Source: Quercus robur (Eukaryota; Streptophyta; Magnoliopsida; Fagales; Fagaceae). From it: a stretch of 64,000 nt of DNA. Each line of letters starts with the position of its first letter. The stretch's first letter is position 1. The stretch is taken from positions 15,063,974 to 15,127,973 of the forward strand of contig NC_065536.1 of the NCBI RefSeq assembly GCF_932294415.1, written 5' to 3'. Below are positions 23,101-63,503 of the stretch, piece after piece. The notes under the pieces were generated by a model. The model did no database searches. It was not told the DNA's origin and was given only the letters and a program-made list of their open reading frames with translations. Both the position numbers and the translations under genes were made by a program.

Positions 23101-26100
23101 GTTTAAGATTTCAGAGGGAATTCAATAATTGGGAGTTGGCGGCTTCCTACTCCCTTCTTCATTTAATCCAAACTCGAATCCCTAGGGGTGAAGGGTGTGA
23201 CAGGCTTTGTTGGAATCTTAATGGCAGTGGGAAGTTTGATACTCGGTCTTTCTATCATAAGATTCGTAATGCAGCTCTCCCCACCTTCCCTTGGAAGGGT
23301 ATTTGGAAAGTTAAGGTTCCTAAAAGGGTGGCTTTTTTTATGTGGATAGCAGCTCATGGTCAGATTCTAATTTTGGATAATCTTATGCTTCGTGGTCACC
23401 CATTGGCAAATCGTTGTTATTTGTGTTGTTGTAATGCGGAATCTGTGGATCACTTGTTACTTTTTTGTCCGATAGCTCATTCTTTGTGGATGTATATGCT
23501 TCGGTTGTTTGGGATCGATTGGGTCATGCCAGGTTCAATTGAAGACTTATTATTCTGTTGGTTTCATTGGCTTGGGAAGCATAGTTCTAATATTTGGGAT
23601 TTGGTCCCAAGCTGTTTAATGTGGGCTATTTGGTCTGAATGGAATTGGTGGGCTTTTAAGGATGAGGGGAAAACTGTGGTTTAGTTATTAGAGTTTTGCC
23701 AGAGGACCCTCTTTGATTGGTCTCGATATTGGGGTTTCTCGGATTGTTCTACCCTTACGGATTTTATTTCTTCTATTAGAATAGATTAGGGGCTGTTTTT
23801 GTCTTGTTGTTTCTTTTTTCCATTGTTCACTACCGTGAACTCTTTGTGTTTCTCTTGCTTTTCTTTTATTAATAATATTCTCTTCTTACTTATCAAAAAA
23901 AAAAAAAAGTTTAGGAAGATTTGTAGATTTTGGGTTTAGAACCTTTTTGAAGAAGGATTAGGGTTTGAGAACGAATATGGGTTCACTAGAAAAGGAAAAA
24001 TATTTAATTTTGGGTTGAAGAGAGAGAGAGAGAAACAGATATAGAATTTCTCCAAATCAGTAAGTGTTAACACTACACAAAAACAGTGTGAATGAACAGT
24101 ACTTATGAACAGTTTTGTGAACATAATATCACAAGAAAGAAGAGAAAGGGAGGAAACAGAATACTAAGGCCAACTTGCCTATACTCAAAACACAATATTT
24201 TATTGATCAACTCTGACTTGTTTGAGTATAGTAAGATACCTATATAGACCATAACTCTCTAACTTTTCTGAGCAGAAAACTTCTACTTTGAGTAGTAAAC
24301 CAAACCTTAAATTAAACCAAAACCCACACATATTTGATAAGTAAACAAAATAAGACTTACTTATTAATATAATAAAGAAAACCCAAGGCCCATAACTATG
24401 GCCCATACCCAATAATTGTAGACTAACTAAAATACCCTTAACTCTAGAATGACCATATAAAGCATAAAACTTAATACACTACTATGGATACTTTATTCTT
24501 GAGCTTTGCCTTAACCGTAGACTTCCAAATAGGAAATTGTTTCTCTAACCATGCTATGGTTGCGCCATCAAAATATCCAAACTAAAATTGACTTGTACTT
24601 AAAGAAACTAAACCCCACACGCTTAGAATTTTTTAAGCATAACTCAAAGACTAAAATATCCTTAATTGGTAGGAATTACAAAAATTATCAATCTTCCCTA
24701 GATAAAAAAAGAAAAAAGAAATAATAAATCTTGTAAAATAAAGAGCCAAATATAAAAACTATATTAACTCTATACTCCTAACAACATACCATCAAAACCA
24801 TAGTATTCTTGCTTCAATTGTACATGTATGGAGTTATGGACCCATGAAACAAATCTTGAAATCAATAAAATTGCAAAAGTAGTTCTCACAGAAATAACAA
24901 ATCAATATTGCATGGTTTCTTCACTCATCAGTCAGAAAAGTAAGTAATGTACACAGCACATCAATAACTCAAGTTGGCCCATCTCATCAATGGGCAAAGG
25001 TCAGCAAACTGCAGCCCTTCAAGAACCCCAAGGACAATATTCTTCCAATCACAAACAAGAACAGAATTCTAGAAGTTTCAACCAGCCTAGAAAATAAATG
25101 CTATAAATTGCACAAAAACTACAAATCAAAAAGGCATGTTGGGCCAATGAGCTCTAACTCAAATGACATTTCCCCTCCCCATAAGAATGTGATAGAGGGT
25201 GAGGTGGAAGATTCAAGACCCATTGGATGCATGTTTAACTTACTAACAAAAAAAAGGGACAAACATATACAGACATGCACATGGAGTGATGATGGGTAGA
25301 TTCAATATTCAGAAAACATACCAGGAATCTGATCTATGAAGCCAAGGGTCTGACATACTTCTAGAGCCTGTTTATACTCTGCAACAACTTCAAAAAGCTT
25401 TAAAATCTCTTCTCTATTGAATGAAGATGTCAATTCATAAGTAGCTAGAAGCAGCAAAAAAGCCAAAACCTCCAAAGAATTAATAGCACTGGCTGTGAAT
25501 TTCATTTTCCACTCAACCGCCAGTTTCATTGCTTCTTCTTTAACTTGTGGAGGTATCTGTGGTGAGAGACTCTTAAGCTGCTGTAGCATTAAGATGTAGC
25601 TCTTCATGATACCTGCTTCAAAACCTGTGTCTCCCTTCTCCCAAATATAAGGAAAAGAGCCTTGCATCACATCCAAAACAAGCTTTGCTGGATCCGATAA
25701 CAGTTGAGGAGAAGCTAATATTTCGTTGCACGTCAAATCAGCCCCATTCAGTTGCTCATTCAGGAACTGCAAACTCCCATATGTGGTGGCATTTAATTGA
25801 AGATTTACAGAAGAAGAACAAGCAACATTTTTGGCTGGTAGATATTCAAGCTGCTCCATTTTAACTTGGGAATGAAGAGCACTGGCCACTGGACAGGTAG
25901 AATGAATAGAAATCAGTGGGTAATTTATAAGAATTTTCTGTATTGAATATAAAGCATACTTATCGCATTAAATTTTCTTTCAAGCAATACAAATCATCAG
26001 AAACTCAAGGAAGAAGTTATATTTGGACTGCCAAATTCTTAAAAGACCAAATTTAAGCCTTGGATTCACTAGAGATGATGTTGGAAGAAAGGGACAGCAT

Positions 26101-26717
26101 ATCTGGATTATTTCCTTACAATCATTATCACAATTATACCATAATTTATTACTAGCTGTGTTAGACATTAATGTGGGGGAGGACAAGGAAATAGTGAAGA
26201 TAGTGTGTTAATCAATAAGCATCCCAGGAATATAACTAAATAACTGATGAATGAATAAACTGTATAGTGTTAAACAATAAAATCTCAAAATGGTAACGCC
26301 TAATAAGACATTAAAGTGTTCAAACAAGGCATTTTGCAATAAATATCATTGCTGCCAACAACCAATGGATTAACTATGTGCAGAAAAACTTATCCCATGA
26401 CCAGTCCCAGGGCAATGGCAGCAGTCCTGCTCCACAAAGGAATGGAATCTGACACAACATAATGACAGAAAAAGTCCCAAACCCGTAAGGAAGGGTCATT
26501 AACATTTTTAAGCTTTTCAGTGAGGTCTAGAGGGCAAAAATATTATCAAAATTGGTTTCATCATATAAAATAAAATAAGAAAGATGTATAAGCCTCTCAT
26601 TTCAAAGAACATTAGGGACATCACAATTGCTAATTCAAATATTCACAATAGATTAAAAGAAGAAAAAAATTAAGATCACCTATTTTAGCCTTGAAGTTTA
26701 GGCAAATCAAATTAAAA

Positions 26718-26756
<39 letters not shown>

Positions 26757-28831
26757 CCAGGTGCTTTATATATGATCCCAAGGGTTCGACATAATTCAGG
26801 TGCCAGTCTATGCTGATCAATAGTGAGAAAAAGACTCCGTAGCTCATCTTCATTAAAGCCAGAGCCCAATCCAAATGTTGCCAAGAGCTGCAGAAAACCC
26901 AAAACCTCCAGACCATTATCTTTGTCCACTTTCATCTTTGCCTTCCATTCAACTGCCAATTTCATTGCTGCTTCTCTCACCTGAGGCTTAACAACTTTTG
27001 AGGTTTTCATTAACTGCTCTAACAAAAGAATACAACTCCTCCTGATAATATTCACATCAAACACCATATCTCCCTCCCTTGAATGTGGAGGGTAAAACCC
27101 ATGCATTGCATCTAGCACCAACTTCGAAGGGTCAGATGCTGTTTGAAGAATTGTAGAGACTTCACCACGCACCATCTCATGCCTTTGTAAATTCTTATTC
27201 AAGAGCAACTGCAAACTTCGTCCATCCATGGTGGTGTGGGATCTCAAAGATGCAGGGTAAGGATCAACAATAGCATTGTTGGCAGGTGTGTGTTCATGTT
27301 GCTTGGTCTTCACTTGAGAAGGAAGGTCATTAGTGTTCCCCTTCAATTCCTTCTCTTTTATAGTCTCTTTCAGTGATATTTGTATTGAATCAAATTTTTT
27401 CTCTCTCAATTCAAGCTCCTTGACTCGTTCTTTGACTTTCCTTTCTCTCATTTCAAGATTATTTTTTATTGAATCAAATTGTTTCTCTTTCAAATCAAGT
27501 TCCTTGACTCGTTCTTTGACTTGCCTTTCTCTCATTTCAAGATTATGTGAACGTTCGTCCAATGACTTCTTGAGTGAGGCAAGATGCTTCTCTTTCAATT
27601 CAAGTTCTTTGAGCCCTTCATTCACTGTTTCTTGGACAAATTTCAGTTGCTTCTCCTTTGATTCAAGAGAATCAGTGCACTCTTTGACGGACTTTTCTAC
27701 CAAATAAAGTTCCTTCTCCTTTGATTTTTGTTCCTTAAAACATTCCACAATTGCTTTCTGAATTGATCTAAGCTCTTCCTGTTTTGATTTGAACTCCTTG
27801 TCACACTCTTTAATCAAATTCTGTCTAGAATTCAGTTGATTTCCTTTAAATTCAAGTTCCTCGTTGAGTTCTTCAATAGATCTTCGGATTGCATTATGCT
27901 CCCTCTGTTTTAGCTCAAAATCTTCACAAAATTTTCTATACAATTCTTCGACTGAATCAAGTTGCTTCTCCTTGGACTGAACTTCTTTAGACTGGTCTAT
28001 CAATTTCTTCTCTATCAAATCTAATATCTTCTTTTTTGACTTAATTTTTTCTGAACTCTCTTTAATGCAACCATCAATAGACTCAATTTCATTCTCTTTC
28101 ACTTTCAGCTCCATTGTCCGCTCTTTGATTAACTTCCCTATTTGATCAAATTGCTTTTCTTTCGATTCAAGCTCTTCACTATTTTCTTCAATCAATATTT
28201 TGATAGACTCCAAATGTTTCTCCTTTGACTTAAGCTCTATTGCTTTCTCCTCAATCAACTTTTGAACCCCACACAGTTCCCTCTCTTTCAACACAAACTT
28301 TTCAGCCCAATCTTTTATTCTTTTTTTCGCTAACTCCACTTCCTTCCCTTTCATCATGACTTCATCACTATACTTATCTAACAAGTCCTTCACGGTCTCC
28401 AACTGCTTCTCTTTCAATCCCAATTTGTCACAACACTCCTCAAACGACTTCTCCAACCAATCCAGTTCCTCTTTTTTCAACTCGAGGTCCCTAGAGTACC
28501 GTCCCATTGATTTTTGCATTAAAACCAGTTGCTCCTTATTCAACTGAAGCTTCTCCAGCACCAAACCCAATTCAATTTCCTTTGCACCAAGCTCACTCTG
28601 CACTAAACCCAATTGTTTCACCTTCAAACCCATCTCTTTTTCGCGCTCCTCGAGTTCTTTGAACTGGGTTTCAATGGACTTCCTTGTGGAATCCAAGTGT
28701 TCCTCCAAGTCTTTCCATTGAAGTGTGAGTATAAGGATTGAAGACGCTTGAGCATTCAAGGCCTCAAACGCTTTCCTCAAACCACTCTGCTTCAAATCTA
28801 ATAGCTTTAAATCTGAAGCCACTTTCTCCAT
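17111..28831 (-). CDS. FRIGIDA-like protein, FRL5-type, two FRIGIDA domains (1075 aa)
   Basis: Four exons, complement of 26758-28831, 25322-25888, 17618-17790 and 17111-17524, join in frame (introns of phase 1, 1 and 0) to 3228 nt. Residues 1-530 are a long Lys/Glu coiled coil of about 20-25-residue repeats. FRIGIDA domain 1 is about 538-691 ('[18 protein letters not shown]', '[16 protein letters not shown]'). Domain 2 is 692-938 ('[16 protein letters not shown]', '[17 protein letters not shown]', then '[21 protein letters not shown]' from exon 3). The tail has a possible nuclear signal (NKRAR) and a Gly/His/Tyr-rich end. The architecture resembles Arabidopsis FRL5. FRIGIDA itself scaffolds transcription activators of the floral repressor FLC; a role for this paralogue is not established. 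The second intron (about 7.5 kb) holds a LINE in the opposite direction. This is the only copy here with a fully open frame. Confidence 0.88.
18473..19279 (+). pseudogene. LINE ORF1-like protein remnant
   Basis: From about 18473 the translation carries the plant LINE ORF1 N-terminal style ('[21 protein letters not shown]', '[31 protein letters not shown]'). It then runs in an open frame from 18728 to 19279 with a Gly-rich stretch ([11 protein letters not shown]). In plant L1 elements this protein binds the element RNA. The frame changes near 18715, so the product is broken. A further low-complexity stretch to 19890 may belong to the same ORF. Confidence 0.55.
20149..23684 (+). pseudogene. LINE ORF2 (endonuclease / reverse transcriptase) remnant
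   Basis: It runs in order through an endonuclease (20149-20830), a linker, a reverse transcriptase (about 21480-22400, FADD catalytic motif) and a zinc-binding C-terminal region (22590-23684). In a live element it nicks the target and primes reverse transcription from the element RNA. Open blocks are 20478-21140, 21174-21701, 22071-22799 and 23025-23681, separated by stops or frame changes; the stretch 21702-22070 is the worst. Confidence 0.85.
24065..24783 (-). mobile_element. Probable solo LTR (fossil), within FRL intron 2
   Basis: Read on the minus strand it starts TGTTAGGAGTATAGAG and ends TAGTGTTAACA, with inverted TGTTA/TAACA ends. The sequence is LTR-like, including an aataaaatattg polyadenylation-type motif. 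It is about 719 bp. I did not find matching 5-bp flanks, so the limits and the solo-LTR call are tentative. There is no coding capacity. Confidence 0.4.
24784..25321. other. Remainder of FRL intron 2
   Basis: Nothing recognised. It lies directly upstream (plus-strand view) of the exon beginning at 25322. Confidence 0.5.
25889..26757 (-). other. FRL intron 1 with (CT)n next to the donor
   Basis: Intron between the two FRIGIDA-domain exons. On the gene strand it starts GTAAT and runs straight into a CT dinucleotide microsatellite (26720-26753 on the plus strand as GA). No further element recognised. Confidence 0.7.
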
Positions 28832-29449
28832 TGCTACATAAAAATTGTACCTTTCTTGTCCAAAAAAGAAAAGCAAGAAACCCTTAAGAAAAAAATTCAA
28901 AACCCAGATATAAAAAACAGTACTGACCCAGAAAAAAACTACTTTCTTATTCTTTTCTGTTTTCACTTTTCAACTTTTCAAAAACATACATTTTGTGTTT
29001 TTAGAGACTGAAAACCCTAAAACCCTAGCCAAGCAATCCAAACGCTAGAGAGAATTTGAAGAAATATATATAGTTTTGTTTTTTTGTTTTGGATGAATAA
29101 ATAAATAAATGTAAATATTTAAAAAAATAACTAATACTAGTGTATTGTACAGACTACAAAGACGGCGTGTTTTGCGTGAATGAATAAATGTAATTAATAT
29201 ATTACCAAAAATAAAAAAATTAGTGAAAGTCAAACATCAATGGTGGAAAAAAGTTTTATGGTTTTACTTACAGAGACGAAGTCCGAGGTCGGAGAAAGAC
29301 AACAATTGCTTACAATTTTGTGAAAGCTATGCTCTGCTTTTTTTTCTTTTTTTTTCTCTGTTTCTTAACTTTTGGTTTTTACTTGGTGATGATTGAAACA
29401 GTGAGAGTCTTATAAAAGTGGGGCTTTGCAGAATTGGTTTTTATAAATA
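28832..29449. other. Upstream region of the intact FRL gene
   Basis: Presumed 5' UTR and promoter of the minus-strand gene starting at 28831. It is AT-rich with pyrimidine tracts. No precise promoter element can be assigned. Confidence 0.4.
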
Positions 29450-30436: not shown

Positions 30437-30740
30437 TAAGAGATTTTTATTCCCACTTGTAAAACCGTACCTTCAAATATATCGTACTAGGTTGTTTTTT
30501 ATCAGACTAGTCTAGTAGATTTTTGTTAAAAGACTAGTCTAGTAGTTAAAATCGAATAACACTAGAAGTTCTATTTTAAAGCAATAAAAAAAAAAAGTGA
30601 AGCCTCAAGTTTGATTTTGAATGATATATTCAAAATTTAAATAATTGATAGTAGTAGTAAATGTCGGTTTTTTTTTTTTTTTTTTTTTGAGAATATAGTA
30701 AATGTCGGTAAGGTTTTTTTTCTATACTACTATTTAAGGG

Positions 30741-32166
30741 ACTTCTCCTGTTTGGATTCCACATTTTTTATGCCTAAGATACCCTCATCATACCCACTTA
30801 CAAGTTTTCAACTACCAAGGATAGATATGTAAATTAAAACTCCTACACTTTAAAACCACAAACTCATGTACGCTTTACAGTTTCTATCTCACTTTCTCTC
30901 TCTCATTCTTCTTCAAATTAAAAACATTTAGTTTAGCTCTACATCCTCTTCTCTTTTTCTTCATATTAAAGATATTTACTGTCAAAGGCTTCAACAAATT
31001 TTCAGGTTCTATCTTTTGCAAGTTCCTCTTTGTTTTCTTTTCTTTTGTTTATGATTGACTTTCTTTAAGTTCTACTTTTTTTTTTCTTATATGTATCACG
31101 TTAACTCTTTTTTTTTCCCCTTCTTCTTTATTTTAAAATGTAATTTTGAAATAAATAGTTCCTTCATATACTCCATCATTGTACTTCTTAAAGAATTGTC
31201 ATTTCATGTTGTAGGTATTGTGATCCAAAGATAGAGCTGTCTTATGCTACAAAAGAAGTATTCAAAATCATTCTCCAACAGTTAAACAGTATGGCTTCCT
31301 TTACCTCTTTTAATAGTCTTTGTTTACATATTTAAAATTATAACCATGATCACCTCATGAATAAATAGTAGTTTTTTTTTTCATTTGTGTAACTTTTTTG
31401 TATATCATTTACTACACCTTTTATATCAATCTAAATTATCAATTTTATATACACCTGTTTAGATTCCACATTTTTTATGCCTAAGATACCCTCATCATAC
31501 CCACTTACAAATTTTCAACTACCGAGGATAGATATGCAAATTAAAACTCCTACACTTTAAAACCACAAACTCATGTACGCTTTACAGTTTCTATCTCACT
31601 TTCTCTCTCTCATTCTTCTTCAAATTAAAAACATTTAGTTTAGCTCTACATCCTCTTCTCTTTTTCTTCATATTAAAGATATTTACTGTCAGAGGCTTCA
31701 ACAAATTTTCAGGTTCTATCTTTTGCAAGTTCCTCTTTGTTTTCTTTTCTTTTGTTTATGATTGACTTTCTTTAAGTTCTACTTTTTTTTTTTCTTATAT
31801 GTATCACGTTAACTCTTTTTTTTTTCCCCTTCTTCTTTATTTTAAAATGTAATTTTGAAATAAATGGTTCCTTCATATACTCCATCATTGTACTTCTTAA
31901 TGAATTGTCATTTCATGTTGTAGGTATTGTGATCCAAAGATAGGGCTGTCTTATGCTACAAAATAAGTATTCAAAATCATTCTCCAACAGTTAAACAGTA
32001 TGGCTTCCTTTACCTCTTTTAATAGTCTTTGTTTACATATTTAAAATTATAACCATGATCACCTCATGAATAAATAGTAGTTTTTTTTTTTCATTTGTGT
32101 AACTTTTTTGTATATCATTTACTACACCTTTTATATCAATCTAAATTATCAATTTTATATACACCT
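30741..32166 (+). repeat. Tandem duplication, period about 707 bp, at Helitron 5' end
   Basis: Copy 1 starts at about 30748 (cctgtttggattccac) and copy 2 at about 31455 (cctgtttagattccac). They stay closely alike through 31454 and 32166, with a few substitutions. A third copy, inverted, forms the 5' part of the nested Helitron (about 35880-36530). Confidence 0.85.
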
Positions 32167-32470
32167 TTTTTTTTTTTTGATAAGTAGATACATCTTTAAC
32201 TCCCATTAAAATGTTGCCTACAAAATAGGATCACTCTCCTAATAGTTTTCAAATTACTTTATCCATTTAAAAAAATTAAAATTAAAATTAAAACAAACAC
32301 ACTTTTTTAGTAAAAAAAAAAAAAAAAACCCACATCTTCCGTTACAAACTATTTGATCTTAAATTTTTAGTTCCAACTCTCCAATATATCTTACGTTTCA
32401 AAAAAATATATATAACTGAAGGTAATTGTAAAAGTTGGATTGCTACACCTATTAAAACCACGTTTGTTCT

Positions 32471-32513
<43 letters not shown>

Positions 32514-33504
32514 CCCACGTTCTCACATCCACCACAATATTATCCTTCTCCTTCAGTTTCTTTTTCCGTCATCCACCCAATCATCTTCCACCATCTTTCA
32601 CTCTCACTTTGTTAAGTCTTCACAGTTTTTTCAAATCCTATTCATAAATTGATACATGTTTTGATGTCAAAATGGTAGGCCTCTGAATCTGAAATGGGCA
32701 AAGGCTCTCAGGGGCAGCTTGATGTATTTTCCCATTTTTCATATCTTTATTTTTTTATTCCATAATTTTTTTATCCACATAATTTATGACTATTATTTTT
32801 TTATCTACACAATGCAAGGCTACAACCACTAAACGTTTCCCAAATAACTGTAAATTTTCGAAATTCAAATTTCCAGTAAAATCTCACCATGTTCTCTATC
32901 ACAATCTCTTTTATCCTTATATGCTATCACTACCAACATTTTCGGATAACTACTATTTTATTCAAATGTTTGCTTTATTCTATTTCTTTTTTTCTTTTTT
33001 TTGGAGAAGAATTTTCTATTTCTATTTGAATTCAAAAATTTCAAACACAAACTCTAACAAACTTAAGCTATTATCTTTAACAACATATACATTCAAACGT
33101 TGGTTTGTTAATTAAAGTTTTTTTTTTTTTTTAAATACTTGGTTTAACCCTAATTTTTATCTCTCTCAGGTTCACGTACGCACAAACTTTTTGGATTGCA
33201 TTGAAGAGTCATTGGAATGGAATATTAGATAAGTTCGGGTGAGAGACTTTACAAGAATTATTATATGTATTAAACTTCACATAAAGTGGTTGTTATCTAA
33301 GAAACTGTTGTAAAAAAATTTCTTTTGTAATAGAAACTATATTTCTTTTGTATACAATTAACGTGTATCTCTTGTCATAAAATTTTCAAATTAAGCTTTT
33401 ATTTACTTATGTTATGGACGTGTAGTAAATGACTAAATTTTAGGATTAAAAATACTACATTTTACGAATAGACAAAAAATGATAATTGTCATACATAAAA
33501 TTTG

Positions 33505-33535
<31 letters not shown>

Positions 33536-33575
33536 CACATCAACAACACCAAGAACGTGAGAGACTTTACAAGAA

Positions 33576-33880
33576 CTAGCCTCTGAGCACGCGCGCAGAG
33601 GCTCTTCTATTTTTTGGGTAAGGATTAATTTAGAGCATTTATTATAATTTGGAATTATTACATTTTTCAATCACAAAAAAAACCTAGGGGTGTGATGAGT
33701 GTCATGTATGGAGAAATAATTTTCCAATCACAATAATTTTTCATCACAAAAAAATCTAGGAGTGTGATTGGAAAATTATTTCTCCACACATGACACTCAT
33801 CACACTCCTAGGGGTTTTTTTTTTGTGATTGAAAAATGTAATAATTCCAAATTATAATAAATGCTCAAAATTAATCCATG
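33576..33880. repeat. Fold-back 3' end region of nested Helitron
   Basis: A near-palindrome of about 300 bp. 'Gggtaaggattaattt' and the cacaaaaaa/tcctaggggt blocks reappear inverted after a central palindrome around 33730. It matches the element at 44386-44755, but the far arm lacks the last ~40 bp. Confidence 0.75.
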
Positions 33881-33884
33881 TACT

Positions 33885-34790
33885 ATTTTAAAAATCCTAC
33901 TTTTTATCCCACGTTAAGCATCTCACGTTTTCCTCTTTTTTTTTTTTTTTTTTAAATCTCTTCCATATTTTGGAAAAAAAAGACTCCTACAATAAAACTA
34001 CTACTATAATTTCTCCATCTATATCCTTATATTTAGGCACTAACATATCTGATTTTGAAAGAAAATAAAATGCTAAATTTTAAGGAAAAAAATTTAAAGT
34101 CTAATATTCCATTCTTGTAAAGTCTCTCACGTTCTCTCTCTCTATCTATGTACTATTTAAAAAAGTCCCACTTTCTATCCCACGTTAAACATCTCAAGTT
34201 TTCCTTTTTTTTTAAAAAAAAAAAACCTTTTTGGTGTTGTTGATGTTTTTTTTTTTTAATTTTTTTTTTTTATGTATGACAGTTATCATTTAATTTAATC
34301 TTTAATTTACTTTTTGAAGTAAGTAATACGATTTTTTTTAATAAAAAATAAAATCGTTTTTACTGTTTTCTCTTTTTCGAAAATTCAAAGTATTTACATC
34401 TTGTACTTTGTCCTTTTTTTTTTAATATATATATATACACACATCTATCTATGTACTATTTTAAAAATCCTACTTTTTATCCCATGTTAAGCATCTCACG
34501 TTTTCCTCCTTTTTTTTTTTTTTTTTTTAAATCTCTTCCATATTTTGGAAAAAAAAGACTCCTACAATAAAACTACTACTATAAGTTCTCCATCCATATC
34601 CTTATATTTAGGCACTAACATACCTGATTTTGAAAGAAAATAAAATGCTAAATTTTAGGGAAAAAAATTTGAAGTCTAATATTCCATTCTTGTAAAGTCT
34701 CTCACGTTCTCTCTCTCTCTCTCTATCTATGTACTATTTAAAAAAGTCCCACTTTCTATCCCACGTTAAACATCTCAAGTTTTTTTTTTT
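33885..34790 (+). repeat. Direct repeats with Helitron-like 'tctatgtactattt' starts
   Basis: Blocks starting near 33887 and 34447 ('atgtactattttaaaaatcc') and near 34143 and 34729 ('atgtactatttaaaaaagtc') form a tandem duplication of about 570 bp. Each start resembles a Helitron 5' terminus (A then TCTATGTACTATTT). Confidence 0.65.
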
Positions 34791-35523
34791 TTTTTTTTTT
34801 AAAATTTTATGTATGACAGTTATCATTTTTTGTCTATTCCTAAAATGTAGTTTTTTTAATCCTAAAATTTAGTCATTTACTACACATCCATAACATAAGT
34901 AAATAAAAGCTTAAATTGAAAATTTTATGGCAAGAGATACACGTTAATTGTATACAAAAGAAATATAATTTCTATTACAAAAGAAATTTTTTTACAACAG
35001 TTTCTTAGGTAACAACTACTTTATGTGAGATTTAATACATATAATAATTCTTGTAAAGTCTCTCACCCGAACTTATCTAATATTCCATTCCAATGACTCC
35101 TCAATGCAATCCAAAAAGTTTGTGCATACGTGAACCTGAGAGAGATAAAAGAATTAGGGTTAAACCAAGTATTTTAAAAAAAAAAAAAAAAAAAACTTTA
35201 ATTAACAAACCAACGTTAGCGTGCATGTTGTTAAAGATAATAGCTTAAATTTTGATAAGATCAACGTTAGAGTTTGTGTTTGATTTAAATTTTGATGGGA
35301 TCATTTTTCCTAAAAATCCTATTAAAATTGTTCAGAATAAAGATACATATCTAACTCCCTACAAAATAGGACAACTTTCTGTTAGTTTTCAAAGCAAACT
35401 TCACTTTCCTTACTCACGTTTAAAATTATTCAGTCACCACCAACATTTCAAAATTAATTTTAAAAAAAAAAAAAAGAAAAGGAAAGAAAAAAAAGAAAAG
35501 AAAAGAAAGAGAGTTAACGTGAT

Positions 35524-35555
<32 letters not shown>

Positions 35556-36530
35556 GAAAAAAAGAGTAGAACTCAAGGTTGCTACATACCTATATAAAAA
35601 AATAAAAAAAATTTAATGCCAAAAACATATACACTCAGTCACCACCAACATTTCAAAATTACATTTAAAAAAAAAAAAAGGACAGTTAACATGATACATT
35701 AACAAAAAAAAAAAATGTAGAACTAAAAAAATTTAATGCCAAAAACATATACAATGATGGTAAAAAAAAAAAAAAAAAAAAAAATTTATAAAAAAAACAT
35801 ATATATATATATATATGAAGAAGGAAAAAAAAAAAGAAGTGAAGTGAGGAAGGAGAAGGAAATAGTAATTGATCATTTATATGTAACTATTTTTATTTCA
35901 ATTCAAAATTTTTAAATAAAATGTAAACAAAGACTATTAAAAGAGGTAAGGGAAGCCATACTGTTTAACTGTTTACAAATGATTTTGAATGCTTCTTTTG
36001 TAGCATAAAGCAGCCCTGTCTTTGGATCACAATACCTACAACATGAAATGACAATTAATTAAAAAGTACAATGGTAGAGTATATGAAGGAATCATTTATT
36101 TCAAAATTACATTTTAAAAAAAAAAGAAGAAAAAAAAAAAAGAGTTAACGTGATACATAAAAGAAAAAAAAAAAAGTAGAACTTAAAGAAAGTCAATCAT
36201 AAACAAAAGAAAAGAAAACAAAAAGGAACTTGCAAAAGATAGAACCTGAAAATTTGTTGAAGCCTCTGGCAGTAAATGTTTTTAATCTGAAGAAAAAGAA
36301 AGGAGGATGTAAAGCTAAACTAAATGTCTTTAATCTGAGACGAATGAGAGAGAGAAAGTGAGATAGAAACTGCAAAGCGTACGTGAGTTTGTGGCTCTTA
36401 AAGTATAGGAGTTTTAATTTACATATTTATCCCTGTTAGTTGAAAACTTGTAAGTGGGTATGATGAAGATATTTTAGACATGAAAAATATGGAATCCAAA
36501 CAGGGGAAGCCCCTTAAATAGTAGTATAGA

Positions 36531-37840
36531 TGAAATATTAGACTTTTAATTTTTTTCCCCTAAAATTTAGCATTTTTTTTTCTTCAAAATCAGATATGTT
36601 AGTGCCTAAATATAAGGATATGGATGGAGAAATTATAGTAGTAGTTTTATTGTAGGTGTCTTTCTTTTCCAAAATATGGACGACATTAAAAAAAAAAAGA
36701 AAAAAAAAAAGAGGAAAACGTGAGATTTATTTTGTATACAATTAACATGTATCTCTTCACATAAAATTTCCAATTTAAGTTTTATTTACTTATGTTATGG
36801 ATGTGTAGTAAATGACTAAATTTTAGGATTAAAAAAACTACATTTTAGGAAAAGACAAAAAATGATAACTGTCATACATAAAAGTTGAAAAAAAAAAAAA
36901 AAAAAAAAAAAAAACAACATCAACAACACCAAAAACGTTTAAAAAAAAAAAAAAAAAGAATGAAAACTTGAGATGTTTAACCTGGGATAGAAAGTAGAAA
37001 TTTTTTAAATAGTACATAGATAGAGAGAGAGAGAACGTGAGAGACTTTACAAGAATGGAATATTAGATTTAAAATTTTTTTCCCTAAAATTTAGCATTTT
37101 ATTTTCTTTCAAAATCAATTATGTTAGTGCCTAAATATAAGGATATGGAAGGAGAAATTATAGTAGTAGTTTTATTGTAGGAGTCTTTTTTTTTTTTCCA
37201 AAATATGGAAGAGATTAAAAAAATAAAAAAGGAAAACGTGAGATGCTAAAAAGTAGGATTTTTATAATAGTAAATGGATAGATGTGTGTATATATATATT
37301 AAAAAAAAAAAGACAAAGTACAAGATGTAAATACTTTGAATTTTCGAAAATGAGAAAACAATAAAAACGATTTCATTTTTCATTAAAAAAAACGTATTAT
37401 TTATTTCAAAAAGTAAATTAAAGATTAAATTAAGAGAGGAGTATATACTTAGTTTAATGCTTTGGTCTAAATTTAAAGTGCGATTTTGAGCAATAGTACA
37501 TGACAAAAAATGATAACTGTCATATATAAAATTTGAAAAAGAAAAAAAAAAAAAAAAAAAAAAACAACATCAACAACACCAAAAAGGTATTAAAAAAAAA
37601 AAAAAAAGGAAAACTTCAGATGTTTAACGTGGGATAGAAAGTGGAAATTTTTAAAATAGTACATAGATAGAGAGAGAGAACGTGAGAGACTTTACAAGAA
37701 TGGAATATTAGATTTAAAATTTTTTTCCCTAAAATTTAGCATTTTATTTTCTTTCAAAATCAATTATGTTAGTGCCTAAATATAAGGATATGGAAGGAGA
37801 AATTATAGTAGTAGTTTTATTGTAGGAGAAATTATAGTTT
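36531..37840 (-). repeat. Inverted copies of the 'tctatgtactattt' repeat family
   Basis: Minus-strand counterparts of the blocks at 33.9-34.8 kb. They include ends near 37018, 37268 and 37666, and three copies of the 'gttagtgcctaaatataagg' segment (36600, 37123 and 37771). Confidence 0.65.
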
Positions 37841-37993
37841 AAGCTGTTTAAACATTCTTCATTGATTGGAATCTTATTATTTTGATAAAATCCGTAATCT
37901 CTGGCATGTTAATTGTATGTCAATGTATACTAAGATACTAAGTCAATGTTTATAATATTAAATTTAGGTCTCCCTCCAACCTATCCAACTATA

Positions 37994-40900
37994 ATGGCGA
38001 ATGACTTTGAGGCTGGATCAAGTCATATAAATTCTAATGTTACTACTAGTAAGTCTTATATAATATATTGATAAAGCTTTAACTATATTTTTTTTATATA
38101 TAATTACACCAATTGAGCATTTTATATAAATACATTGCAGTTACAGAAAGAATTGAAGGAGTTGAAAATATAGTTGAGCAAAACCAAGGGGATGCCTATA
38201 GAGAACAAGGTTCGTTACTCAATGTCACCATTTTTATCCTCAATTTCATGTTTATATCATTCTATAAACATTTCATCATTATTTTTTATATATAATAACA
38301 CCAATTGAGCATTTTCTATAATTACATTGCAGGTGTAGAAAGAACAGAAGCAGTTGAAAATATTAATTGTCAAAATCACGGGGATGGCTACAGAGAACAA
38401 GGTTTGTTACTCAATCTCACCATTTTAATTTTAATTTACATGTTTATCATTATCAATTTTATTATTTGTTAATAAGCTGCATATTTGAAACATTATTAAT
38501 ATTTTAATATTTTCTTTCACAACTATTATAACACTCTTTATCACTAATTTTTTCCTCAAAATAAAAATTAGGTGTTGACAACACGTTTGATGGTACTGCA
38601 CATGTAATAAATTGTATGCGAGGCAGATACAATTGTGCAAAGGATTATAAAGAAGGTATACAGACCATTAGGTACCAACTACCACAACCAAAGACATGTT
38701 GCTTTCGTAATGCTCGTTTGTTCCATCGAGAGACATCCTCGATGTGTTGCAAGGATGGAAAAATATCCTTACCCAACATACCAATTTGTCCTGAATTTAG
38801 GGAGCTCATTTGTGAGCAAACACCACGAGGCAGACATTTCAGGCAATATATACGGTTTTACAACAACATGTTTGCATTTACCTCAATGGGAGTGCACGTA
38901 GATGAAACCATGGCCTTGAATAGTCGAGGAATATATACATTTCAGGCCCAAGGTGCCATCTATCATAGAATTGGTAGTCTTTTACCACATACACCTCTAA
39001 GTGTACGGCATCTACAATTATATATCTACGACACTGGTCTTGAAATACAACGCAGAATGTCTCAATCTGTAGAAGCTCATGAAGATATTGTGCAACTTAT
39101 TCAAAGGATCTTAGACATGCATAACCCATTTGTGGAGAAATTTTGTCAACTATCTCGAAGTCCAAATTTACATCAATGTAAACTTCTGATTAAAGAACAA
39201 CCTTTAAACCAACCTCAATATTGCCTTCCTAGTGCTTCCCAAGTGGCAGCTATTATTGTAGGAGGAGAAGAAGCTGGTCATTTAAGTGGTAGAGAAATTT
39301 TGGTTCAAACATTTGGTGGTAATTTGATCAATGTTCAAGATACAACAGGATATTATGATCCATTGCAGTACCCAATACTTTTCCCATTTGGAACATATGG
39401 ATGAGATATCAATACACGCGATACTAATAGAAATAAAGTGTCATGTCGTGAGTATTATGCATTCATCTTTCAGGTAACAGTTTTATTATTTTCAATTTTT
39501 TTTACTTCAAAATTCCGCTTACACTATAAAATAACTGAACCTACATTTATTTTTACTAATGTCCAAGATTCGCGACGATGCTCTATCAATGATTTGGTAT
39601 GGAGGACGCCTTTCACAACAGTATGTTGTTGATAATTATGTAAAAATTGAAACACACAAGCTTAGGTGGTTTGAGCACAATCAAGATTCTATTAGGGCAG
39701 ATCTGTACCAAGGCCTACAAGATGCTTTCCATGAAGGAGAGAGTGATACTGGTAATGTAAATTTTACACTTGAAATTTACATTATCTTATTAATGGCAAA
39801 TTGGTAGGAATATTTATTAATGACCCAACTTTTTCACCTTATATTTAGGAAATGTTGGACATAAAACCATTCTACCTTCATCATTTGTGGGAAGCCCACG
39901 CGATATGATCCAATGATTTCAAGATGCAATGTCATTGGTTCAAAAGTTTGGGAAACCAGATTTATTCATCACAATGACGTGTAATCCAGAATGGGAAGAA
40001 ATCCAAAATGAGCTTTTACCCGCACAAACCGCACAAGATCGTCCAGACTTGCTTGCAAGAGTTTTCAAATCAAAATTTGAAGAATTGAAAGATGATATTG
40101 TGGTTAAAGGGGTTCTCGGAAGAGTTATTGTATATGTGCAAGTCTTTGAGTTCCAAAAAAGGGGTTTACCACATGCACACATGCTTATAATTCTCGATGA
40201 AGATGATAAATTGCATAATCCAGAGGATTACGATCGAGTTGTTAAAGCAGAAATACCGTGTAAGGAGGAATAACCTCAGTTACATAAAGTTGTACTAAAA
40301 CATATGAAACATGGTCCTTGCGGAGTACAAAATCCAAGATCACCATGTATGAAAAATGGGCGATGTAAAAAAGGATACCCAAAGCCTTTCTCGCCAGAAA
40401 CCTACCAAGACAATGACTCATATCCTGTTTACAAACGATATGATACTAATAATCTCGTGCCATTGAATGATCATTGCAGGATTATGGTAGACAATACTTG
40501 GGTTGTTCCATATAATCCTTGGTTACTGCTAAAATATAATTGTCATATTAATGTTGAAATATGTTGCAGTATCAAGAGTGTAAAGTACTTATACAAATAT
40601 GTGTATAAAGGCCCAGATCGTGTCTTTATGGAAGTTAGACTAGGCCCAAATTATGATGAGGTCCAACAATACGTTGATGCAAGATGGGTATGTGCTCCAG
40701 AGGCATGTTGGAAGATATTTTCTTTCCCTATGTATCGAATGTACCCTGCCGTTTTTCGTTTGCAAATTCATCTTCCAGATAGACAACAAGTACATTTTAG
40801 ACCACATGAACCAATTGCTAATGTTTTGGAGCGAAGTAAAAAGACAATGCTCACTGAAATTTTTTTATATGAATACGATTGATCATGATGCACGAAATTA

Positions 40901-42908
40901 TCTATATAGAGAGTTCCCTGAGCATTATTGTTGGGATCATAAAAACAAAACATGGACACAAAGAAGATCTCATAAAAAAGTAGTGGGCAGGGTATATACT
41001 GTTTCACCATTTGATGGAGAGAAGTTCAATTTGCGTGTTCTTCTTAATCATGTCAAGGGGCCAACAGGATTTGACGATTTATTGACTGTGAATGGGATAA
41101 CCTATCCAACTTTTAAACAAGCAGCTGAACATAGGGGTTTACTAGAGAATGATAACAGCATACGACAATGTCTACTTGAGGCAAGAGACATTCGAATGCC
41201 ATCAGCTTTAAGAAGATTGTTCGCAAAAATATTGATATTTTGTTTACTAATTGGAGTAAGAGAATTGTGGAATGAGTTCTATCCATATATGATAGAAGAT
41301 TACCCATCAACATCTGTTACAACAGAGACACATCGTACAAATAAACTTCTCAATGATTTAGAGGCATTACTCTTGCAACATGGAAAGCATATTACAGAGT
41401 ATGATTTGCCGATTTTAACTGGAGAATGTGACAATGATTCAACTACACCAAGACTCATACAAGATGAGCTAACTATTCCTAATATAGATGAAGAATTCAC
41501 TTTAATTGAGAAGTTGAATAACGACCAGAGACTTGCATATGAGACAATCATGACAATTATTGATCGTAACGAAAGCATGATATTCTTCGTCGATGGGCCA
41601 GGGGGAACTGGGAAAACATTTTTGTATCGCACAATATTGGCAGCCTTGAGAAAAGCTGGTCACATTGCAATTGCCACTGCTACATCTGGCATAGCAGCAA
41701 CATTACTCCCTGGTGGAAGAACAACGCATTCCAGGTTTAAGATTCCTTTAACTCTAGATGCTTCATCTACTTGCTTAATAAGTAAACAATCAGACTTAGC
41801 TGAGCTTATTAGACGTGCCACCATAATAATTTGGGATGAAGCCCCAATGGTAAATCGACGTGCACTCGAATCTTTAGATAGAACATTTAGAGATATTATG
41901 GAAGTAAATTTACCTTTTGGTGGGAAGGTGCTAATTTTGGGTGGAGATTTTCGTCAAGTACTTCCGATTGTTCCAAAGGGTACAAAGGCAGAAATGATTG
42001 ATGCATGCATAGTCAAGTCCCCATTATGGAAAGATGTCAAAGTGTTACATTTGAAGGAGAATATGAGGTCTAGCAATGATGAAGAGTTTGCTGAGTACAT
42101 ACAACACATTGGTGATGGGAATGAACCATATATAATTGATGATTTGATTAAACTACCCCCTTCAATGGCAATGCAATGGGAGGGTCAGCATTCTATATAC
42201 AACTTGATTGATCAAGTTTTTCCAAATTTACAAGACCATGTCAATGATGCAAGGTATATGGTTGATAGGGCTTTGCTAACACCTATAAATGATGATGTTG
42301 AACAACTTAATGCAAAGATAATTTCTCAGTTTCCAGGAGATGAGTTTACATTACATTCTTTTGATGAGGTTGAAGGAGATACACAACATCTATATCAACA
42401 AGAATTCCTAAATTCTATATCTCCAGGGGGTTTACCACCACATATATTACGGCTAAAAAAGGGTGCTCTAATTATGTTGTTGCGCAATATAGATCCAAAA
42501 GCCGGATTATGTAATGGTACAAGATTGATATGCCGTGGATGTTTTAACAACGTAATTGATGCTGAAATTTTGACTGGACAATATGTGGGTACACGTATTT
42601 TTTTGCCAAGAATCCCTTTGAAGACAACAGAAAATGTACACCTACCATTTGTAATGATCAGACAACAATTTCTTGTATGTTTAAGCTTTGCACTTACAAT
42701 AAACAAAGCGCAAGGTCAGACAATTCCAACTGTTGGAATTTATCTTCCTGATCATGTTTTTAGTCATGGCCAATTATATGTGGCATTGTCAAGGGGAGTC
42801 TCCCAATCCACTACAAAACTATTGGTGCAAAAAGGCAGAATACCTGAGGAGGAAGGTGTTCACACAAGAAATATTGTGTATAAAGATGTTTTGTTCCCTT
42901 CATCATAG
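37994..42908 (+). pseudogene. Helitron Rep/helicase (RepHel), degenerate
   Basis: The start at 37994 (MANDFEAGSSHINS) is followed by exons 37994-38048, 38141-38209, 38333-38401 and 38572 onwards, with consistent phases. Then comes the Helitron-like N domain ('LQLYIYDTGLEIQRRM', 'DPLQYPILFPFGTYG'), and further introns at about 39474-39574 and 39753-39848. The rolling-circle Rep domain has the two-His motif ('FQKRGLPHAHMLIIL' near 40152) and the two-Tyr motif ('KYLYKYVYKG' near 40585). The C-terminal half is a PIF1-type helicase with Walker A 'GPGGTGKT' (41597), Walker B 'IIWDEAPM' and 'FALTINKAQGQT'. In-frame stops at 39402, 39914 and 40271 and a frame change near 40862 make it non-functional as it stands. 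The helicase half (to 42908) is fully open. Confidence 0.9.
38107..38470 (+). repeat. Tandem exon duplication in the RepHel gene (period 192 bp)
   Basis: Two 69-nt phase 1-1 exons, 38141-38209 and 38333-38401, encode related peptides ('TERIEGVENIVEQNQGDAYREQ' and 'VERTEAVENINCQNHGDGYREQ'). The preceding intron ends ('caccaattgagcatttt' at 38107 and 38299) and following donors are duplicated as well. Confidence 0.85.
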
Positions 42909-43050
42909 GTATTAATTAACAATTGAAAAGAACTGTCTTACATATAGATTTATTTTAATAATTTACAAATTTTAATGGTTATGCTATCTTCATTTTAATA
43001 TTTCATTCTTTGAAGTTTTTTATGTATACAATTAATTGGTAATAGGAAGG

Positions 43051-44089
43051 ATGCCTAACTCAAATGTGAGGATTGAGTCCACTATGTTAAATAATGGAGT
43101 GCATGCTGTTCCTATTGCTCATTGGGAGAAGTGGAAGGATGATCAGTCAATATCGAACATGGAGGCCATTGATAACAAGGTATATTTCTTTCTAATGATA
43201 TCTTTAATCAGCATCCTTTCTATTGTTTTATCAAAATTAATATTAAAAATGTCATGTTGCGAATGGGTTAGGTTCGAAAATTGCAAATTTATTCACCTGG
43301 TTGGGGATTCACTGTTCGAGCTGACAAGAAAGAGCTTTGGAGAGAAGTAAAACGAGTTTTAGAGTCACAAGAATTGGAAAGGTTTGTTATGCTATTTTTT
43401 AAAATAGGAAAATAACTAATTGATAATTTTAATATACAAACATTTTTTTTTCCTTCATTTTGAAGGACCAAGAACAAAGACAAACAACAAATCGCTGTCA
43501 AGAGCAATGAAGTTTCCAACATCCATAAGAATAAAGACAAAGGAAAAATGAAGGACGATGTGATCTCTAACACTCATGCCAACAGAGACAAACGGAGAAT
43601 GAAAATCAAGGACAATGTGGTTTCCAACATCAAAGAGCAAAAAAAGATACGAACAAAAAAAATCAAGGACGATGCAATCTTCAACACCAAAAACAGTAAA
43701 GACAAACAGAAAATGAGAGTCAAGGACGATGCGATAATAAAGCAGGTACAAAACATTACCACGTCTACTTAAAAATATATATATATAGTTTTTAAATTAA
43801 TTTTTTTTTAAATTTTGGTAATTAAATGATAGCTCTTCAAGTCCCAAGCTGAAGTAGACCATTTCACATACATGGAGCTATGCCATATCATCACAAGGTC
43901 AGTTCAAATATTTCATTTTACAAGTTTATGCATGATATTTATAGTGCTTATCATTATTATGTACGTTTTAAAGTCTCTATTAATAATACAAACTAACACA
44001 TTTTGTATCATAGGTTCATGGCAAATACTGCTGGAAAGCAATTAGAATGTGAAACAAATAGCATTGCTCCACCAACTTCTCCACTGTAG
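43051..44089 (+). CDS. Five-exon gene for a 219-aa lysine-rich repeat protein, in Helitron
   Basis: Exons 43051-43179, 43272-43381, 43466-43745, 43833-43897 and 44014-44089 all have GT/AG borders. They join in frame to 660 nt ending in TAG at 44087. The N-terminal part is MPNSNVRIESTMLNNGVHAV, then 'IYSPGWGFTVRADKKELWREV'. Residues about 81-173 are five tandem units of 17-19 residues, with the shared core 'K.KDD.I.NT/I' between Lys/Arg-rich ends. The tail is acidic/neutral ('SQAEVDHFTYMELCHIITR'). I do not recognise the family. It lies 142 bp past the helicase stop and before the Helitron 3' end, on the same strand, and an acceptor-like AG sits just before the start. It could be an accessory Helitron gene, a captured host gene, or downstream exons of the RepHel transcript. 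It is unbroken although the Rep part is not. Confidence 0.6.
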
Positions 44090-44385
44090 TCGTCATAATA
44101 TTAATAAGATCACCTATTCCATGTTTAAGATGTAGTGCATTATTTTACAGTTTTATCATAATTGCTTTTGGCAAGGTCATCACATGTATTTTGTAAGTAG
44201 TCTTATTGTTACAGTTTTATTATGCATTTTCAATATATGCACTATTTATAAGATTTATTTAGAGGATCTTTTTTTTCCTCCCCCTAAAGGTTAATACTAA
44301 ATTATTGCATTATCTCCCAATCAATAATACGTTGATTACTGCATAATTTTTTTTTTTGGGCAAAAATGGATAATAATTACGGAAT

Positions 44386-44755
44386 ACTAGCCTCTGAGCA
44401 CGCGCTCACGTGCGTGCTCAGAGGCTCTTCTATTTTTTGGGTAAGGGTTAATTTAGGGCATTTATTATAATTTGGAATTATTACATTTTTCAATCACAAA
44501 AAAAAAAAACCTAGGGGTGTGATGAGTGTCATGTGTGGAGAAATAATTTTCCAATCACAATAATTTTTCATCACAAAAAAATCTAGGAGTGTGATTGGAA
44601 AATTATTTCTTCACACAGGACACTCATCACACCCCTAGGTTTTTTTTTTTTTTTTTTGTGATTGAAAAATGTAATAATTCCAAATTATAATAAATGCCCT
44701 AAATTAACCCTTACCCAAAAAATAGAAGAGCCTCTGAGCACGCGCGCAAAGGCTA
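44386..44755. repeat. Fold-back 3' terminal region of the large Helitron
   Basis: Both ends carry the 'cctctgagcacgcgc' hairpin followed outward by CTAG (44386, minus direction) or CTAA (44755, plus direction), each with a T beyond. Between them lie two arms of about 170 bp around a central palindrome near 44570. It looks like two Helitron 3' ends joined tail to tail. The companion copy is at 33576-33880. Confidence 0.75.
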
Positions 44756-45520
44756 ATTTTTTTTAAATGATTATAAGGGGTCAAGTTTTTTGATACAGTT
44801 TCGAAACTTTTATTAGGGGAAAAAAGGATTTAAAAAAAAAAAAATACAATAGAGGTCTAGTAGAGGTCTAGTAAATCAGAGAAAAAAAAAAAAGAAAAAA
44901 AAGATAAAAAAAAAAGGAGATCTCCTAAGTTTAGGATTCAGAGGTAATATAGGAATAATATAATACTAAAAATTTTTTTTTTTTCCTCGGGAAAAAAATT
45001 TACCTATAACTAATAATAATTACTAATTAGTTTAGTGTTTTTCAAAGAATCATGACTATAAGCCTTATTAAGTTGAAAGAAAATTTAATTAGATCTTAAT
45101 TTGAAGTCAATGGAGATTTTTTTAACCATTAATAATATTTAATTTATGTTGAAATTAAATTATTAAAATTATGTATTTAAGTACATACTTTTATTCCTTC
45201 TAATTTTTTTTTAAATGTAATTATGTATATGTATAAGATTACAAACTACTTAACATTAATAAGTCATCCTTGAGGGATTTTTTCTTATGATCATTTGATG
45301 TATGTTAGATGGAGGGATACACACATCCAAACGAATATATGATTTTTAACAAAGAAGTATAATGATAAGCCATCAATGCAAGTGGTGTTGGATAAAAATA
45401 ATGAAATATAGATTATAGAGACAAGGCAAGGCACTTCTTTCAACGTGGAGTTGGTAGTGGACCACACGTGTTGAGTCAAATTGTGAGACCATAGCTTCTT
45501 CTTCTTTTTTTACCTATTTT
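44756..45520. other. AT-rich sequence, nothing recognised
   Basis: Several poly(A)/poly(T) runs. No domain-bearing frame. Confidence 0.4.
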
Positions 45521-47071: not shown

Positions 47072-48534
47072 GGAGTCTTTTGGGTTAATATTGTAAAATT
47101 CAAAGTTAATTTGCGTTATATGAACTGTTCAAAGATAATTGGGAAATTGAGGAGAGAGACTGAATTTCGGCAATGCCATTGCCGAAATTCAGCCAAAAAG
47201 CAGGAGAGAGAATAAGAAAAGGAGGAGAGAGAAAATCTTTGAATTTCGGCAATGGCATTGCCGAAATTCCACTGCCCAGTTTTACTTCCCGAATCCTATG
47301 TGTCCGAGTGTGCCCGAGTGTGGAGTGCTCTTAAAATAAATAAAAAAAAGGCAATGGCAGCAATGTCATTGCCGAAATAGGGGAATAATTTTTTTTTTTT
47401 TTTTTTTAGCAATTGTGATAATGGCATTGCCAAAAATGGGAAAAAAAAAGTGGTTTCGAAATCTTTAGAAGAGTAAAAAACAGGTTTCATGTCCACAATA
47501 TTTTTACAATAAATCACATATAATTAGTTATTATTAGTTAAAAAAATTTGTGACAACTAATTGTGACAATGGCATTGTCGAAATAGGAAAAAAAAATTGT
47601 GGCAATATCATTGCCGAAATAATGAGAAAAATAAAAGTGACAAACTATTTGAGACAATTGCATTGCCGAAATAGGGAGAAAAAAAATTGGAAATTTTTCC
47701 CTATTTCGGCAATAGCATTGCTGTAAATGAAAAAAAAAAGAAAAAAAGATAGAAAACGGCAATGGGATTGCCAAAATAGGGGGGGAAATTTCGGCAATCC
47801 CATTGCCGTTTTCTATCTTTTTTTTTTTTCTTTTTTTTTTTTTTTCTTTTTTTTTTCTTTTTTTTTTCTTTTTTTTTTTTCATTTACAGCAATGCTATTG
47901 CCGAAATAGGGAAAAATTTCCAATTTTTTTTCTCCCTATTCCGGCAATGCAATTGTCTCAAGTAGTTTGTCACTTTTATTTTTCTCACTATTTCGGCAAT
48001 GATATTGCCACAATTTTTTTTTTCTATTTCGGCAATGCCATTGCCACAATTAGTTGTCACAAATTTTTTTTAACTAATAATAACTAATTATATGTGATTT
48101 ATTGTAAAAATATTGTGGACATGAAACCTGTTTTTTATTCTTCTAGAGATTTCGAAACCACTTTTTTTTTTCCCATTTTCGGCAATGCCATTATCACAAT
48201 TACTAAAAAAAAAAAAATTATTCTCCTATTTCGGCAATGACATTGCTGCCATTGCCTTTTTTTTTTTTTTTTTAAGAGCACTCCACACTCGGGCACACTC
48301 GGACACACAGGATTCGGGCAGCAAAACTGGGCAGTGGAATTTCGGCAATGCCATTGCCGAAATTTAAAGATTTTCTCTCTCCTCCTTTTCTTATTCTCTC
48401 TCCTGCTTTTTGGCTGAATTTCGGCAATGCCATTGCCGAAATTCAGTCTCTCTCCTCAATTTCCCAATTATCTTTGAACAGTTCGTATAACACAAATTAA
48501 CTTTGAATTTTACAATATTAACCCAAAAGACTCC
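47072..48534. mobile_element. Giant fold-back element of GGCAATGCCATTGCC repeats (MULE-like)
   Basis: A nearly perfect inverted repeat of 1.46 kb with arms about 47072-47780 and 47787-48534. Ends read ggagtcttttgggttaa in both directions. It is flanked by the direct repeat acatcaaag (47064-47072 and 48535-48543, one base shared with the left end). Each arm contains about nine variants of the small palindrome GGCAATGCCATTGCC, usually followed by gaaat, spaced 40-150 bp. Long terminal repeats plus an 8-9-bp duplication fit a Mutator-like or hAT fold-back element; MULE is my preference. It has no coding capacity. A transcript would fold into a long hairpin. Confidence 0.8.
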
Positions 48535-62436: not shown

Positions 62437-63503
62437 GTTTGTCAATATCCTCTATCTCTCCCCTTCATCATTTAAATTTCGATTTTGGAGCTTCTATGTT
62501 TGCAGCACTTCTCTTCTTCATTTTATTTGGGATTGTATGTTTTGTGTAGGTAATAAGGTGTATTTGTTTCTGTTTCTGTTTTTTGCTGGGTTAAAATTAT
62601 GTTTATCGCATTGATATAATGCTGAACTTAATTGCCTGGTTCACTTCTCTTCTCTGTACTGCTTACTCAGATGCATTTTTCAACTACAAGCTGCTGGTTT
62701 ACATGTTTCTTTGTTCTTGATCAAATTGCCCACCAGATAATAAAGGGACTGACTGCAAGAACAGAGAATATTTATGCTTTCTAAATTTGCCAGTGTCTCT
62801 AATTTACTTGTTGCATTATGGTATTTTCTATGCGCAACACATTAGTGAATGTAGTTACCCTTTACCGATGAAACTGATAATAAACAAAAGGAAATTTTAA
62901 TATTTATTTTTTGACTCACTCCTAATAGCTGTATAGTTAAGAAGGTTCTAAAAAGTTTTGTTTCTTGTCCATTCTATGCTTGTGGATTTAAAAACAAAAT
63001 TAGTCTCACCTTGTGTGACCATGTACTTTTTATGTTCTTCTTTATCAAAATGATGAAACTTGTGCTCTAAGGTTGTGAAGAAATTAATCTATTTATGATT
63101 GGTTTGACATGGCTTGATCACCATCTCTCTATGCAATTGGATGACTGTTGAGTCTTGAATTAAGCGCATTCTTTTGAGACACTGAGCCCATTTTTGAGCA
63201 AACCCAAGCTGATCTTACTCAGGTTTTAAGAACTTGGAGTATTCAAATATGTGAATATTTGGAACTTGATTTTGTCCTACCCATTTTTGGACCCCTTAAA
63301 ATAAGATCAAATGGGTTGCACTTCAAGGTTGAGCTGGACTCTGGGTTTTTTTTTTTGCTTGGTGACCTGAGATTGAGTGACATGTATTTATAATTTCTGC
63401 GCAAATGTAAATTAAGCCTATGCATAACTTTAATCTCACAAACTTAACTTATCGCAAGATACTTGACTAGGCTTGGATTGTTTGTCTTTTTAAATGTGAT
63501 TTA

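Follow-up and report, generated by a model that had tools for sequence, protein, structure and literature searches.

In this study, we report a five-exon gene for a small basic protein, carried by a Helitron of Quercus robur behind the gene for the Rep and helicase protein of the element (RepHel). On balance, we favour the view that one lineage of plant Helitrons has here a genuine accessory gene, located in the usual place of RPA and likely to be a helper of RepHel. In PMC4683698, many plant Helitrons are described as carrying RPA as an extra gene, and an element with RPA and no RepHel is also described. The gene was found in a 64,000-nt stretch of the Q. robur genome (NC_065536.1, positions 15,063,974 to 15,127,973), referred to below as the window, and its copies, its relatives and the corresponding slot at other RepHel loci were analysed in the genome of the window.

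Methods

The genome searched comprised 785.7 Mb in 42 contigs. Copies of the accessory gene were sampled as 20 copies at 10 kb each, and five shorter stretches were added later. The comparison of the slot behind RepHel was performed on 85 RepHel C-terminal matches among the matches listed (87 rows less two overlaps), and those with an identity of 78% or more were assigned to the family. The DNA following RepHel was also taken at four other loci (L037, L038, L039 and L040).

Results

The Helitron and its RepHel gene

The element carrying the gene (Table 1) is a canonical Helitron, with a TC 5' end, a hairpin and CTRR at the 3' end, and coding regions for Rep and a Pif1 helicase, though RepHel is broken in the window copy. 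The 5' end, TCTATACTACTATTTAAGG at 30721, begins with TC, and its junction is common to two further copies, L013 and L014, whose flanks differ; the preceding base is A in both of these and T in the window. Copy L009 differs on its 5' side and has no TCTATACTACTATTTAAGG-type end there. The 3' junction was placed by aligning the window, in which the end was read directly, with 18 copies of differing flanks, several of them truncated or deviating at the end. The terminal hairpin is followed by CTAA in the window and by CTAG in L012, L014-L016 and others, and the next base is T in the window and several copies. Both ends were mapped, with flanks unrelated between copies, and the accessory gene therefore lies inside a ~14-kb Helitron, with RepHel on one side and the 3' palindrome on the other. 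This confirms the first-pass annotation, which had placed the gene near the 3' end of such an element.

The Rep part of the same element had been described as broken, and this holds for the window copy. The RepHel frames stop before 39405, 39917 and 40274, with a new open frame directly behind each stop, and the frames at 40304-40882 and 40653-42908 are out of register. In the Rep domain, which has its stop just before 39917, an intron may also separate the two pieces.

Table 1. Features of the Helitron and its accessory gene, with positions in the window
Feature	Position	Strand	Remarks
Whole Helitron, ~14.0 kb	30721-44756	+	5' TCTATACTACTATTTAAGG; 3' hairpin and CTAA, then T
RepHel N-terminal piece, 262 aa	38616-39404	+	Ends at a stop in the window copy; no Pfam match
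Rep domain Helitron_like_N, two pieces	39535-40270	+	PF14214, E 1.4e-10 and 2.2e-38
Pif1-like helicase part of RepHel	40653-42908	+	PF05970, E 2.4e-75; PF21530, E 1.3e-19; stop codon 42906-42908
Accessory gene exon 1	43051-43179	+	43 codons, phase 0 end; window and family alignment
Accessory gene exon 2	43272-43381	+	Window and family alignment
Accessory gene exon 3	43466-43745	+	Five Lys/Arg-rich units of 17-19 residues each; unit borders read by eye
Accessory gene exon 4	43833-43897	+	Window and family alignment
Accessory gene exon 5, including stop	44014-44089	+	Window and family alignment
Large subterminal palindrome	44409-44746		Arms 44409-44509 and 44646-44746, 99% complementary; present in many copies

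The near-perfect palindrome of ~340 bp directly before the 3' end is flanked on either outer side by hairpin sequence with CTAG-like borders, as if the 3' end had been duplicated in head-to-head orientation. Long direct repeats were observed in the 5' half of the Helitron (36478-37828), and their number differs among copies. Elsewhere in the window, two Frigida-like genes (PF07899) are located on the minus strand at 8479-9243 and 26630-28966, and frames at 12258-14645 and 25302-25889 on the same strand resemble Frigida-like genes by eye. A LINE-type remnant on the plus strand (22071-23684) has a zf-RVT match (E 5.6e-22) and a reverse transcriptase match of 27.5 bits against a cut-off of 29.6. 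A further frame on the plus strand (61344-62549) matches pyridine nucleotide-disulphide oxidoreductase (PF07992) and is thioredoxin reductase-like by eye. Repeated TTTCGGCAATG-type units are present at ~47161-47964, and an inverted repeat, the arms of which measure 147 nt and are 94% complementary, lies at 47610-48000.

The accessory gene and its protein

The coding sequence of the accessory gene comprises 660 nt over five predicted exons (43051-44089) and specifies 219 aa and a stop. The splice dinucleotides in the window are canonical (GT/AG 8/8), the exon phases match, and the introns, calculated from the exon borders, measure 92, 84, 87 and 116 bp; the five-exon model with an open frame of 219 aa, as first proposed, was confirmed. 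The tandem Lys/Arg-rich units proposed with it are also real: self-identity of the exon 3 protein at lags of 12-24 peaked at 0.34 at lag 19, a maximum as high as which was reached in none of 2000 shuffles. TRF, run on the DNA, reported no repeat. The pI is 9.7 for the 219-aa protein and 10.2 for exon 3, which has a charge of +15.6 at pH 7. Exon 3 of a diverged relative, L029, contains ~3 Lys/Arg-rich units, in frame, as against five in the window. Judged from these sequence properties, the gene probably encodes a small basic protein in which the number of Lys/Arg-rich units is variable. The pattern exceeds chance, since the same exon model was found again in L029 and in copies of the family.

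Copies of the gene in the genome

At least 43 DNA matches to the accessory gene were found in the genome of the window, some copies counting twice as pieces. In 19 of the 20 copies of 10 kb, the gene comes directly after helicase sequence; in L020, merely the last helicase bases stand before the gene, and a family RepHel match is located ~10 kb upstream. Recurrence beside RepHel, named in the first-pass annotation as a mark of an accessory gene, was thus borne out by family copies across the genome. The whole gene model (start, splice sites, frame and stop) is intact in 5/21 aligned copies (the window and 20 others), and the remaining copies have stops, indels or lost splice sites in the gene. 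L014 combines an intact accessory gene with two open frames, one of 1027 aa, which contains the helicase end, and one of 355 aa. The contrast drawn earlier between an intact gene and a broken Rep part is therefore seen in the window but, to judge from L014, is partly peculiar to the window copy. Nor is survival of the frame beside a broken Rep anything special, as five of the 21 copies keep the frame and private variants look neutral.

The slot behind RepHel

Among the matches listed, the accessory gene was found at most 1.5 kb downstream of 21/27 family RepHel matches and 1/58 others. The one non-family match proved to belong to a family copy, L028, in which the frame is shifted; the counts become 22/28 for the family and 0/57 for the others. 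DUF223 was found within 6.5 kb downstream of 0/28 family matches and 14/57 others (9/57 within 1.5 kb), counts which are lower bounds because L037 and L038 are absent from the DUF223 match list. Genome-wide, there are at least 31 DUF223 matches and five PF08646 matches at three loci; a near-absence of Helitron RPA, suggested by PF08646 alone, was overturned by the 31 DUF223 matches. RPA-like exons with DUF223 over the cut-off are located directly behind RepHel at L037 and L038. At L039, the RPA-like exons directly behind RepHel are weaker (Rep_fac-A_C E 4.2e-6; 27.0 bits, cut-off 28.5), and DUF223 lies ~3 kb downstream of RepHel at L040. With L037-L040 as positive control, tblastn at E up to 0.01 detected no RPA in the window element, the 20 copies (of which the 10 kb leave out part of the 5' half of the element), L029, L033 or L041-L043.

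The accessory gene is absent from the 1.5 kb downstream of six family RepHel matches, including those of L020, L044 and L045. The RepHel ends of L044 and L045 are 87% and 89% like the family. Exons 2-4 were not detected in either between RepHel and the 3' palindrome, where both carry a different stretch with an exon 5-like piece only (tblastn E 0.009 and 0.011). The two are 98% alike in this stretch, in which a possible first exon of 30 aa was noticed by eye. Their slot perhaps holds the accessory gene in reduced form, or a replacement for it. As exons 2-4 are lacking from L044 and L045, the gene seems dispensable in cis, and some members of the clade would have spread with no complete copy of it in cis, perhaps helped in trans.

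Search for a protein family and a parent gene

Pfam searches with the 219-aa protein and five relatives gave no match above the cut-off, and none to DUF223 or Rep_fac-A_C. Aca2_YdiL, matched by three of the six members (best E 0.0048; window protein 15.4 bits, cut-off 23.8), was taken as a chance match, as were the weak matches to NusA_N (one of six members, E 0.0041) and, in PDB, to MAT1 (E 0.014 and 0.035). The profile databases, to which the first-pass annotation had referred the protein, hence returned weak matches only and no family. Among viral contigs, 75 pattern matches were obtained, none of which was confirmed. No published description of the gene was found in the literature searched, its absence in print being unproven.

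The search for a host parent gene was performed in one genome with exons 1-2 and 4-5 of the window and exons 4-5 of L029, and none was found; the matches, as far as examined, were all at element sequence. The 51 matches to exons 1-2 all fall at places of the genome-wide DNA matches of the accessory gene, and all nine of the exon 4-5 matches taken from outside those places (L046-L054) share element DNA beyond the exons. Capture of a host gene was rejected, the searched exons (1-2 and 4-5) matching element sequence only as far as examined; a match to part of a host gene with flanking exons, considered at the outset, was found for none of them. Two apparently intronless copies, at C1:18005501 and C5:918479, proved to be deleted Helitron copies (L034 and L035).

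The diverged relative L029

Among four diverged stretches fetched (L029, L030, L031 and L033), all five exons were present in L029 only (C41:35685700-35689500), so the deep selection test rests on one sequence. In L029 the four introns are in place, all phases and eight of eight splice dinucleotides are kept, and the introns differ by 34% from those of the window. Over 173 codons, amino acid identity between the window and L029 is 0.64, with dN 0.219, dS 0.568 and omega 0.39 (0.23-0.64) by the Nei-Gojobori method, which is blind to transition bias (the introns have 55 transitions to 74 transversions). Without exon 3 (115 codons), omega is 0.42 (0.24-0.77). The differences by codon position are 33/30/56 (chi-square p 0.006). 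By rough estimates, conservation of 16/16 splice nucleotides at the divergence of the introns has a chance of ~0.0013, and one stop was observed against ~5.6 expected (p 0.022). L029 has one in-frame TGA, and ATT where the window has the start codon, with a later ATG in frame. This one deep comparison suggests past selection for a working accessory protein, and the dN/dS below 1 anticipated for such a gene was observed against one diverged lineage.

No RepHel was found near L029 among the matches listed, and its 3' border resembles that of the family by eye; we interpret L029 as a non-autonomous relative. Nested in L029 (328-1022) is a short Helitron-like insert, also non-autonomous, which shares its 5' end with the window family and has many relatives in the genome.

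Variation within the family

Variants of the accessory gene private to one copy behave neutrally (ratio ~1.03). Variants in at least two copies are modestly depleted of amino acid changes (ratio 0.65, p 0.03); the ratio becomes 0.76 (p 0.16) when CpG sites are left out and 0.62 (p 0.07) when CNG sites are left out as well. The difference between private and shared variants is not significant (Fisher p 0.12), and thus the evidence for selection within the family is weak. No depletion of shared stops was found in the gene within the family. The same variant analysis gave ratios of 0.78 and 0.68 for the helicase and of 0.87 and 0.40 for the N-terminal Rep piece, in which shared variants are depleted of amino acid changes. 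Pairwise dN/dS values inside the family range from 0.33 to 0.57, most with wide intervals. Exon divergence is similar to intron divergence within the family, and the helicase end is less diverged in older copies.

Discussion

The window family resembles the PHRPA Helitrons, as presented in PMC4683698, in combining RepHel with an additional gene, and L029 apparently parallels the RepHel-less element. Placement beside RepHel within the element, found in PHRPA, applies to the window gene as well, on the 3' side. In contrast to PHRPA, the window gene matches neither DUF223 nor Rep_fac-A_C, and no similarity between it and the L037 and L038 RPA-like genes was detected, the profile comparison being no better than shuffles.

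Among animal and fungal Helitrons and Helentrons are elements with endonuclease, OTU or other extra domains. These share with the window family the presence of lineage-specific extra coding parts beside RepHel, whereas the window gene is a separate, five-exon gene of a plant lineage and has no Pfam match to such domains.

The putative accessory gene sits 3' of RepHel, inside the element ends, where other RepHel loci carry an RPA-like gene predicted to bind single-stranded DNA. If spliced and translated as predicted, its product would most likely act as a helper for RepHel-driven rolling-circle transposition, a role suggested by its position and charge; through electrostatic DNA binding, it may do part of the job that RPA does elsewhere.

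VANC proteins are anti-silencing proteins of plant VANDAL elements and, in a comparison made by Pfam search alone, the accessory protein is like them in being encoded by a plant DNA element without being a transposase. By analogy, a basic DNA-binding protein could counter host silencing of the Helitron instead of assisting its replication. We consider such a VANC-like role unlikely: it would suit a basic repeat protein beside the transposase gene in which the unit number varies between lineages and the frame is kept, and the removal of part of the shared changes on leaving out CpG sites is compatible with methylation of the copies, but no Pfam match rose above the cut-off and the position is that of the RPA slot of other RepHel loci. 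We also rate as unlikely that the gene is a functionless passenger, a captured fragment or relic at the 3' end with frames left open in young copies by recent amplification. Neutral private variants (ratio ~1.0), exon divergence equal to intron divergence within the family, the lack of exons 2-4 in L044 and L045, and an exon 5 that stays with the 3' end in deleted copies are all in its favour; it is opposed by the third-position excess and the omega across the window-L029 split, by the roughly estimated retention of splice nucleotides and scarcity of stops over the same split, and by the finding of no host parent, the exon 1-2 and examined exon 4-5 matches lying at element sequence.

Position and multi-exon form are the same as in the RPA-like genes of L037-L039, and the gene might descend from RPA, having kept the slot and diverged until recognisable OB folds were lost. 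This is very improbable in our judgement, as a profile comparison with the joined RPA exons of L037 and L038 scored 16.1 and was exceeded by ten or more of the 40 column shuffles (17.2-20.9 for the top ten), and as the protein has 219 aa against 474 joined residues in L037. The exons could also belong to the RepHel transcript, either as its 3' exons or as a second frame in a message with two genes; an extra intron would then span 42909-43045. The gene begins 142 bp behind the RepHel stop on the same strand, GT follows directly after that stop in 18/21 copies, and AG at 43044-43045 is present in 17/21, kept about as often as other splice sites. With that donor, however, the message would retain the RepHel stop, the AG is absent from L017, L019, L023 and L028, and L029 has the gene with no RepHel nearby among the matches listed, so that we hold this arrangement to be very improbable.

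Further to our favoured reading of a genuine accessory gene, it is possible, and we put it forward tentatively, that this lineage swapped its RPA gene for an unrelated, undescribed basic repeat protein doing the single-strand or RepHel-helper job. If true, the accessory slot of plant Helitrons would be exchangeable. To our knowledge, there is no settled explanation for the presence of RPA in many plant Helitrons, and a lineage without detectable RPA but with another selected-looking gene in the same place would provide a natural comparison in the same genome. The gene would also allow such sequences to be named as a family in plant annotations.
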